From positions 23,923 through 87,922 of the forward strand of contig MU616601.1 of NCBI GenBank assembly GCA_025201705.1: a DNA stretch of 64,000 nucleotides, in the 5' to 3' direction. The notes under the pieces were generated by a model. That model searched no databases. It had not been told where the DNA came from and was given only the letters and a program-made list of their open reading frames with translations. This document shows positions 36,959 through 39,963 of the stretch, in pieces. The translations under genes were made by a program, and so were the position numbers. Every line of letters begins with the position of its first letter. The first letter of the stretch is position 1. This DNA is from Dissophora ornata (Eukaryota; Mortierellomycota; Mortierellomycetes; Mortierellales; Mortierellaceae).

Positions 36959-37570
36959 ATGATCAAGTCACCTCTCACTCTGGCTGCTATCGTTGCTGCC
37001 GCAGTTTCTGCACAGACGACCGGAACTACCCTCCACCACATTTCGTTCACACAGCCCGTGGGCGATGGTATCACCTATGCTGCGGGCACGAACCAAACCT
37101 TTTCCTGGACGATGGCTTGCACAACTCCCTCGACTCTGTCCTCTGCAACGCCAAACGCGACTGAAGTTGACTTTATGGACTCGAACAATATCAACAACGC
37201 GTTCTATATCAAGAAAGTGGGCACGATTGACTGCACAAAATCTGTCGGCAACTTGGTTTGGACGGTCCCTGCGGATACCAAGCCAGGTGTCTACGCCCTA
37301 CAGCTGCTCCTGACCCCCAACAATGCCTACTCTGGCCGATTTAATGTCACGGCCCCAGGTGGATCGACCGCTGGAGCTGGCGGAGCTTCTCCACCCGTTA
37401 CAGCTGGCAGTAGCGGCAGCAGCAATGGCAACAGTAGCAATGCCTCCCCTGGGGCCATCGGTTCCCCCGTAGTTCCTAAGCAGAGTGTGGCGATGCCGTC
37501 GATTTCTGTGGGCAAGACTTTGGCGGCGGCTGTTGCCGGTGCCTCTGTGGTCCTTGGCATGGTGGTTTAG
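36959..37570 (+). CDS. GPI-anchored Ser/Thr-rich wall protein (Kre9/Knh1-type N-terminal domain)
   Basis: Predicted cell-surface protein of the Ser-Thr-rich GPI-anchored membrane family, found in fungal wall biogenesis. Single exon, 203 residues. Signal peptide about 1-18 (MIKSPLTLAAIVAAAVSAQ). The Ig-like Kre9/Knh1 domain shows TYAAGTNQTFSWTMAC, IDCTKSVGNLVWTVP and PGVYALQLLLTPNNAYSGRF. Two cysteines may pair. A Gly/Ser/Asn linker follows (about 135-170), then a hydrophobic C-terminal tail (TLAAAVAGASVVLGMVV) typical of GPI signals. The start is the first ATG followed by a good signal peptide. Confidence 0.88.
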   Translation: MIKSPLTLAAIVAAAVSAQTTGTTLHHISFTQPVGDGITYAAGTNQTFSWTMACTTPSTLSSATPNATEVDFMDSNNINNAFYIKKVGTIDCTKSVGNLVWTVPADTKPGVYALQLLLTPNNAYSGRFNVTAPGGSTAGAGGASPPVTAGSSGSSNGNSSNASPGAIGSPVVPKQSVAMPSISVGKTLAAAVAGASVVLGMVV

Positions 37571-38428: not shown

Positions 38429-39963
38429 ATGTTATCGACAACGCTTTCCTCATTGCCAGACATGATGGCCCATGCCTCTTCAGCTGGCGCTCCCTTTGAC
38501 AGCGAAGTGTCCACCGCAGACCTGGACAGCGAGGCATTCGCGACAACCCCCTCTGCAACCTCCCACACAGCCACCTCCCCCTCAACGAGCACTCAAACTC
38601 TGTCGACAGACATGCAGCTTGATATGCTCACCCAGTTGTTGGACTCCGCATCCTCAACTTCCTCCACCCCCACTATGAACTGTGCCGCCAACATTTCCGC
38701 TCTCCACTCTGACCCCAGTGTCATTGCTATCAGTCCTTTGGTCCTCAAACTCGAGTCGCCCCTGCTGAGCAGCCTCCCAGAGCCGTCCTCCCAGGCCCCA
38801 ACCAAATCCAAGGGCAGGACTAAGGCTACCTCTTCCCCAGCTGCCACCAGCAGCCGTAAGAGATCAGCCGACCCCCTCGACAAGGAAGCCAAGGCCCGCG
38901 AGCGCGTGTTGCGAAACCGTGCCGCCGCTCAGGAATCAAGGGACAAGAAGCGGAAGTACATGTCCGATATCGAGACCTCGAACGAGCACCTTCAGCAGGA
39001 GAACACCCAACTGCTGAAACGACTTAAGACGGTCGAGAGTGACAACCAGGCTCTCTCGCAACGGCTCGAGGCTCTCACAGCACAGTTTGCACAGATGCAG
39101 CAATTGCTATCCCAGTCCGTAAAGCACAACCAACCCGGAGCCGACTTTTGCCAGGTAGGAACTTCCTTTCATGTTGTTGTTATTGTCTAGCTATCCATCC
39201 ATTCACTCAACCCCTGAGGATAACGATATATAACCAGAATCCTACTTACTATGAATAGTCTGCAGCACTGGCAAAGAAGGACAAGAACTTGTCCAACTCT
39301 CGGCAGCAGAAGCTGGCTCCACCCAAGGAAACCCTTTACACCACAACCTCCAAGGAGCAAACGCTCAACAAACACCGACAAGTCTATTCAATGACGATGA
39401 AGACCATGATGAGCAAGAGGGGTCTGAACAGGGAAGCCCGTTCGTCGGATCAGAGTGCAGCTCAGAACAGGATGGAGACCAGCTGTCGGTCTTTTTGCAA
39501 CAACAGTCGCAAGAAGACCTTGACGCTCTCCTCCTCTGCAGCAGCCTCTTTTCCGGCAGCGCGACCACCGACTCGGCAGCTGACCACAACGGTCTTGATG
39601 ATGGTTTTTCTGACCTCCATCCTGCCACAGTTGATGCTGAACTTTTCGACTCTTTTCTTGATCTCGACTGGAATGCGATCGAGCAATCCGCAGGAGCTGC
39701 AGTTGCAGCAGGCAATGCTATCTTTTATCCGACAACTCTCCTCGAGTCGTCCGTCTAATCAGGAGCATGCCTTTTTCCGTTCGAGAACCATCAAGGACAA
39801 CATCACCAGTTTAAACCCGTCAGTGATTGAAGAGATTGTGACAGAATTCCGGCGTGGTCACAAAGATGTGGCCCGCGGACTTTTGGTAAAGGCGTTATTG
39901 TTCAGTCGATTAACACTGGATAATGACAACATCAAGGGATCATTCCTTCTTCGCAAGAAGTAG
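38429..39963 (+). CDS. HAC1: Hac1/XBP1-like bZIP transcription factor of the unfolded protein response, two overlapping frames
   Basis: Master activator of ER-stress genes in the nucleus. Exon 1 (38429-39154) codes 242 residues: an Asp/Ser/Thr-rich N-terminus, then the bZIP at about 152-225 (ERVLRNRAAAQESRDKKRK, the Hac1/HacA-type basic region, then a leucine zipper). A spliceosomal intron (39155-39258, GTAGGA...TAG) leads to exon 2. In that frame exon 2 stays open to 39963 (476 residues, basic, with a hydrophobic stretch at 354-378). Another frame, open from before 39306 to the stop at 39758, codes an acidic Asp/Glu/Leu-rich domain (FNDDEDHDEQEGSEQ, LFDSFLDLDWNAIEQ) that looks like the activation domain. 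Removing the 41-nt segment 39263-39303 by Ire1 would join bZIP to it (394 residues). No nearby AG acceptor reaches this frame without a stop. Confidence 0.88.
39263..39303 (+). other. Putative Ire1 (non-spliceosomal) intron of HAC1
   Basis: Bounded by two loops of the HAC1/XBP1 consensus CNG|CNGN: CTG|CAGC (39260-39266) and CGG|CAGC (39301-39307). The length of 41 nt is 2 modulo 3, like the 20-nt HacA and 26-nt XBP1 introns, and gives the shift to the acidic frame. In mature mRNA the 5' loop sits on a 9-bp stem (TTTGCCAGT / ACTGGCAAA). The 3' loop sits on TCT/AGA, extended by CCA/TGG and one C-G pair with a bulge and a mismatch. Inferred, not demonstrated. Confidence 0.75.

Follow-up and report, generated by a model that had tools for sequence, protein, structure and literature searches.

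A very probable Ire1-type intron of 41 nt in the HAC1/XBP1 counterpart of Dissophora ornata

In Dissophora ornata the gene that corresponds to HAC1/XBP1 very probably carries a HAC1/XBP1-type Ire1 intron of 41 nt, a reading that draws on the sequence, the arrangement of its frames, predicted pairing, conservation among relatives, the presence of machinery genes and the protein of a relative that contains the predicted joint. From these we infer Ire1 cleavage, its dependence on stress, the ligase and the activation function of the product; judged by sequence, the locus appears to have each of the HAC1/XBP1 traits that were looked for, except a firm 3' hairpin. The window, i.e., the whole stretch of DNA that was analysed, comprises 64,000 nt (C40:23923-87922) of an assembly of 31.4 Mb in 968 contigs, in which a search with P0002, the D. 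ornata GenBank protein BGZ58_006292, matched this gene only. P0002 is identical to the unspliced translation of the window from residue 12 to the end. The gene is built as follows:

38429..39154, + strand: exon 1 of the hac1-like gene, with the ATG at 38429 and containing the bZIP
about 38882-39064, + strand: bZIP, matched by Pfam on P0002 (PF07716, E 7e-10; PF00170, E 4.6e-8)
39155..39258, + strand: conventional GT-AG intron of 104 nt, phase 0 (CAG|GTAGGA ... AATAG|T; GT at 39155, AG at 39258)
39259..39963, + strand: coding exon of the unspliced form with the Hac1-U tail of 234 aa, overlapping the acidic frame and conserved in 34 aligned relatives
39263-39303, + strand: putative Ire1-type intron of 41 nt, bracketed by CTG|CAGC and CGG|CAGC, with a joint matched in the protein P0003
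39304..39758, + strand: acidic coding exon of the spliced form, in frame only with 39263-39303 removed

Exon 2 begins at 39259, and both introns are located downstream of the bZIP. The conventional junction of the window is also present in P0002 and in P0033, P0047, P0049, and P0058, proteins from short contigs, while P0027, P0029, and P0036 have FCQ|V and read on into the conventional intron. The unspliced product comprises 476 aa with a stop at 39963, and the product with the 41 nt excised comprises 394 aa with a stop at 39758; the excision swaps a basic tail of 234 aa (15 D/E, 37 K/R) for an acidic tail of 152 aa (28 D/E, no K/R). In the first-pass annotation of this DNA the loops CTG|CAGC (39260-39266) and CGG|CAGC (39301-39307) were described as flanking 41 nt, and it was proposed that conventional splicing enters a non-acidic frame and that the 41-nt excision leads into the acidic frame ending at 39758; the coordinates are exact and the frames are as described.

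Both expected cut sites lie in 7-nt loops, CTGCAGC and CGGCAGC, that fit the Ire1 heptaloop consensus CNGNNGN (PMC3149027, in excerpt). The loops and their predicted stems are listed below:

39137..39142, + strand: possible outer stem, 5' arm GGAGCC, in folds of 105-245 nt, its place being taken by different pairs when 345 or 445 nt are folded
39146..39154, + strand: 5' arm of the 5' hairpin, TTTTGCCAG, to which conventional splicing adds T39259 as the last base
39260..39266, + strand: 5' Ire1 loop CTG|CAGC, fitting the consensus, cut expected after 39262
39267..39276, + strand: 3' arm of the 5' hairpin, ACTGGCAAAG, with identical letters in Podila DNA as back-translated from both frames
39279..39294, + strand: hairpin of 6 bp inside the 41-nt intron, GGACAA-GAAC-TTGTCC, predicted in RNA folds
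39298..39310, + strand: 3' Ire1 loop with a short stem of 3 bp, TCT[CGG|CAGC]AGA, the loop (39301-39307) fitting the consensus, cut expected after 39303
39315..39320, + strand: possible outer stem, 3' arm GGCTCC, pairing with 39137..39142 in the shorter folds

In the conventionally spliced mRNA, TTTTGCCAG^T and ACTGGCAAAG (^ marks the exon junction) can pair around CTGCAGC over 10 bp, nine Watson-Crick and one G-U, and the same loop in the unspliced DNA has 4 bp, so that conventional splicing lengthens the possible stem of the 5' loop from 4 to 10 bp. The notion that this stem exists solely after conventional splicing was discarded, because 4 bp are already possible before that step. With a splice junction located inside this stem, nuclear and cytoplasmic splicing may be linked. 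All 568 CNGCNGN heptamers in the genomic window (both strands, both loops included) have an ungapped stem of at most 5 bp, and none of 5000 mononucleotide shuffles of the conventionally spliced mRNA gave 9 or more bp. Under a stricter null, in which the local protein was kept and codons were sampled by usage, the 5' loop with at least 9 bp appeared in 6.0% and the 3' loop with at least 3 bp in 1.7% of cases; part of the loop and stem signal therefore comes with the protein.

Thermodynamic support for the hairpins in the predicted folds is mixed. For a stem of about 5 bp under the 5' loop, 10 bp are possible and the fifth pair has a probability (P) of 0.41-1.0, depending on context; the full stem is a minority in short contexts, with P for the ninth pair rising from 0.28 in 107 nt to 0.78 in 445 nt. 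The 3-bp stem of the 3' loop, a single-strand prediction, leaves the 3' hairpin poorly supported in these models, and the fold with both hairpins (-33.1 kcal/mol) lies 3.7 kcal/mol above the minimum free energy of -36.8 kcal/mol. The innermost pair of the 5' loop has P of 0.93-0.95; for the closing of the 3' loop, P is 0.09 in the 107-nt context and 0.0 in those of 345 and 445 nt. A search of 39000-39500 against Rfam gave no true match; the two that came up lie far under their gathering scores and were put down to chance.

A search with the spliced protein, in which the 8000 candidates sharing most words were scored, found 57 proteins, the named ones mostly from the Mortierellaceae. Most models of these relatives are in the unspliced frame, and because most of the GenBank models found carry the unspliced form, the active regulator is absent from those annotations. 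Both sites were parsed in 40 of the 57 proteins, or in 41 of 58 with P0058, counts that include P0002 and are not independent, some species being represented several times. The unparsed proteins were P0003, which is spliced, P0018, P0020, P0027, P0029, P0036, P0037, P0040, and P0042, with other junctions or intron read-through, and P0050-P0057, which are not named Mortierellaceae or are distant. Two alignments were made, A1 (35 rows) with 34 of the 57 proteins, picked by eye as models in the unspliced frame, and A2 with 33 of the 58.

In the 35 rows of A1 the residues S-A, L-A-K, N-S, and Q-Q flanking the loops are invariant, and the middle part varies in length. In 40 of the 41 parsed proteins the 3' loop position is occupied by P, R, Q, or L, which are the amino acids that CNG codons specify; the background frequency of these four is 0.29. 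The variation among relatives follows the loop and not the protein, which supports an Ire1-type intron. The lone exception of the 41 is P0017 of Lunasporangiospora selenospora, with Met at the 3' loop, i.e., ATG rather than CNG. The intron lengths implied by 40 proteins are 41 nt (one, D. ornata), 44 nt (one), 47 nt (three), 53 nt (five), 59 nt (27), and 62 nt (three), the last being the length implied for M. alpina; that the lengths in relatives are 2 modulo 3 was rejected as evidence, this argument being circular, as it is built into the way in which the lengths were computed. The relatives are known as proteins, and comparison at the DNA level was made by two-frame back-translation. For Podila the DNA where exon 2 begins could be fixed from the two frames together; there the loop and the 3' arm are as in the window except for loop position 7. 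A CCG obtained for M. alpina by back-translation was not counted, since it rests on an assumption that the Ire1 joint does not imply. A pattern search of genome contigs for the DNA of relatives gave 152 stretches, none of them from a relative.

The protein P0003, M. alpina-like and derived from a 1697-nt contig with the source tag lgn, reads GAGFCQSAAEAGSTGEPSHY, the predicted joint being FCQSAAEAGST. It retains the residues right after the Ire1 intron, without the intron-encoded ones, and PF07716 and PF00170 were matched on it by Pfam as well. The FCQ|SA junction is retained in P0003, P0033, P0047, P0049, and P0058. A single DNA can encode both the acidic tail of P0003 and, in its unspliced frame, P0019 of M. 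alpina along all 166 residues without a conflict; in the same test against P0003, conflicts arise after 70 residues with P0022, also of M. alpina, and after 19 with P0047. The lgn tag is taken to denote assembled public reads, and the lgn proteins are probably not intron-spliced predictions, because three of them, P0027, P0029, and P0036, run into the conventional intron. P0003 is thus probably a cDNA from which both introns are gone. As P0003 is known as a protein, a GT-AG junction could give the same protein if the M. alpina Ser codon before the 3' loop is AGT; in the window this codon is TCT. When the acidic tail was made the target of another search, five matches resulted, P0003 and four gene models, and no further spliced relative.

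Conventional splicing alone, with another GT-AG or GC-AG intron reaching the acidic frame and the loops being incidental, seems very unlikely. Its case rests on the number of routes, as among conventional ALTERNATIVES 133 GT/GC-AG combinations keep the frame open to 39758, of which 36 use an acceptor that precedes 39413, and on donor 39119 (TCC|GTAAAG), which resembles a real one, though it needs acceptor 39413 or later. Those 36 combinations, however, require either GT donors at 39039, 39085, and 39115, all inside exon 1 (15 combinations), or GC donors (21 combinations). From the conserved donor 39155 the first AG leading into the acidic frame is at 39413, 110 nt beyond the 3' cut, so the earlier claim that nearby AG acceptors miss the acidic frame holds for the donor that is really used. 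Acceptor 39413 is surrounded by purine-rich sequence, and its use would remove acidic residues common to P0003. The preservation of FCQ|SA in five proteins, and of the post-intron residues in P0003 without those encoded by the intron, also argues against such a route. The gene models P0037, P0040, and P0042 of Actinomortierella ambigua, which may be cited in its favour, enter the acidic frame by differing junctions, as expected if no GT-AG junction properly reaches it.

It is scarcely credible that the unspliced 476-aa frame, as annotated (BGZ58_006292), is the sole product and the acidic frame a chance overlap. P0002 and most of the relatives' models are of the unspliced form and its tail is conserved, but when synonymous codons were permuted so as to leave the unspliced protein unchanged, only 38 of 20000 permutations kept the acidic frame open, and 5 of 20000 were equally acidic; the third frame contains 13 stops. 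A tail with 28 D/E and no K/R, carried by P0003 too, is likewise hard to reconcile with chance. Programmed ribosomal frameshifting in place of RNA excision, to which the two long overlapping frames within one exon might point, can be regarded as extremely improbable, since frameshifting would leave in the intron-encoded residues that P0003 lacks, and would leave the paired loops unexplained.

With excision of an Ire1-type intron as the preferred reading, the spliceosome would remove 39155-39258, uniting the arms of a 10-bp hairpin with CUG|CAGC. Under ER stress Ire1 would cut after 39262 and 39303, releasing the 41-nt intron; because G-CAG recurs, the joint could be shifted by up to 4 nt. The exons would most likely be joined by Trl1, and the frame would move from the basic Hac1-U tail to the acidic activation tail, giving active Hac1. 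Several lines support the central proposal of the first-pass annotation, a 41-nt Ire1-type intron in a gene for a Hac1-type bZIP protein: the 5' loop and its stem, the permutation test for the acidic frame, the joint of P0003, the variation that tracks the loop, and the genes for Ire1 and Trl1.

The exons for the kinase and RNase (PF06479) of Ire1 are located on contig C837. All 16 solved chains matched by the joined RNase region are IRE1 (best E 2e-35), and its stretch YDGNSVRDLLRALRNKKHHY keeps Y/R/N/H, spaced as in yeast, where the residues are Y1043, R1056, N1057, and H1061 (PMC3149027, in excerpt), with RNKKHHY intact. A hydrophobic stretch, VVGWLVIMLGIVTVIVY, was noted by eye ahead of the kinase, and no luminal domain was recognised by Pfam. 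Trl1 is encoded on contig C190, with the ligase domain PF09511 split over two frames and the kinase and CPD domains PF08303 and PF08302. The assembly also encodes RtcB of a bacterial-type family (L008, G000:C167:21370-22392, minus strand; TIGR03073, 304.9 bits), which may be a host gene, a transferred gene or a contaminant.

According to the excerpts available of PMC6222058 and PMC3154848, Ire1 introns range from 19 to 848 nt (the former source), with 20 nt in A. fumigatus, 19 nt in C. albicans, and 252 nt in yeast (both sources), and 56 nt in Cryptococcus (the latter), so the earlier statement that the known introns of this class measure 20 and 26 nt does not stand. The suggestion that a 41-nt size is new is weak: 41 nt lies within this published range, though none of the 39 other parsed proteins implies 41 nt. 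The size is only modestly new, relatives implying 44-62 nt. With ascomycete HAC1/hacA and yeast HAC1 the D. ornata gene shares the upstream bZIP, the CNG|CNGN loops, the change of frame to an activation tail, and Trl1 in the genome, while its intron differs in length from those of 20, 19, and 252 nt; the spliceosomal junction inside the 5' stem and the long conserved unspliced tail may be further differences. HXL1 of Cryptococcus neoformans is likewise a fungal bZIP gene with one conventional and one Ire1 intron, but, as given in the excerpt of PMC3154848, the former is located upstream and the latter downstream of the bZIP, whereas in D. ornata both follow it. Metazoan XBP1/XBP1u is similar in its frameshifting Ire1 intron and overlapping frames; a difference from it is the presence of Trl1 in the D. 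ornata assembly. Among the titles and abstract openings of the literature matches listed, none dealt with a Hac1 intron of Mortierella or Mucor, or with an Ire1-Hac1 switch in the Mortierellaceae; the sequence evidence places such a switch in this family.

The unspliced frame, whose conservation had no place in the earlier account, is conserved in the 34 aligned relatives, also beyond the acidic stop, the mean frequency of the top residue being 0.70 where the two frames overlap, 0.65 for residues 167-234, and 0.79 for 176-214. Within the overlap its openness is weak evidence in D. ornata, because in the reverse test, with the acidic frame permuted, it stays open in 8839 of 20000 permutations. 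Two segments were distinguished in the tail:

39571..39666, + strand: hydrophobic segment of Hac1-U at residues 105-136 of the tail, predicted by AlphaFold2 as a helix with block pLDDT of 48-67
39790..39918, + strand: conserved tail in the unspliced frame only, tail residues 178-220, beyond the acidic stop, with three predicted helices

The AlphaFold2 model of the Hac1-U tail is of low overall confidence (57.5, pTM 0.29), with block pLDDT of up to 94 in the helices of residues 178-220; folded alone, the 68-residue tail reached a best block pLDDT of 97 and a mean of 71.2. The Hac1-U tail has no relative in Pfam, NCBIfam or Foldseek (threshold for a fold match, E 0.001), and in a PDB profile search the bZIP part alone was matched. 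A search with the tail itself matched 42 proteins, and every named one belongs to this family. The median maximum KD of the hydrophobic segment is 1.65 over 35 rows. Equal hydrophobicity is reached by 40 of 755, 7 of 118, 74 of 711, and 10 of 70 open random recodings of four acidic tails (5-14%), the observed values for P0003, P0001, and P0037 having been supplied by unspliced models, either from the same species or from a related one. The segment, not significant with the acidic tail fixed, was for this reason rejected as independent evidence.

By analogy, an XBP1u-like regulatory role for the unspliced product is possible. In XBP1u a mildly hydrophobic HR2 is followed about 52 residues on by a C-terminal arrest peptide (PMC6624018, in excerpt), and in Hac1-U the hydrophobic segment is followed 42 residues on by the conserved C-terminal core, a likeness seen in position. 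In contrast to XBP1u, the tail of Hac1-U is predicted to form three helices, not a short arrest peptide, and its hydrophobicity is largely a by-product of the acidic frame. It is conceivable, though rather doubtful, that Hac1-U of the Mortierellaceae is a dedicated regulator that matches XBP1u independently in fungi, with a basic tail, made up of a dual-coding stretch of about 150 codons and the three-helix tail without a detected relative, that keeps the mRNA and the nascent chain close to the ER or else restrains or destabilises Hac1, and with the 5' Ire1 stem, extended from 4 to 10 bp via the spliceosomal junction, favouring correctly spliced mRNA as the substrate of Ire1. The conserved tail makes use of the unspliced product, as in animals, a testable question, and its combination with a junction inside the 5' stem is a variant worth following.

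Five Mucorales-like proteins, P0051, P0052, and P0054-P0056, have FCDSA at the same place, where a short insert distinguishes P0051 from P0054 (SA-AEVAKH versus SARIAKKESEVAKH). This insert is perhaps a shorter Ire1 intron, although the heptaloop consensus fails to fit in this register. It is also worth adding that the upstream neighbour of the gene (36959-37570, + strand) encodes a small protein with a signal-like start, MIKSPLTLAAIVAAAVSAQ..., as read by eye, and that in the models P0001 of E. chlamydospora and P0005 of E. lignicola Hac1 is fused to a protein similar to this neighbour; because both contain such a fusion, the order of the neighbour and Hac1 looks conserved and the two models look wrong.
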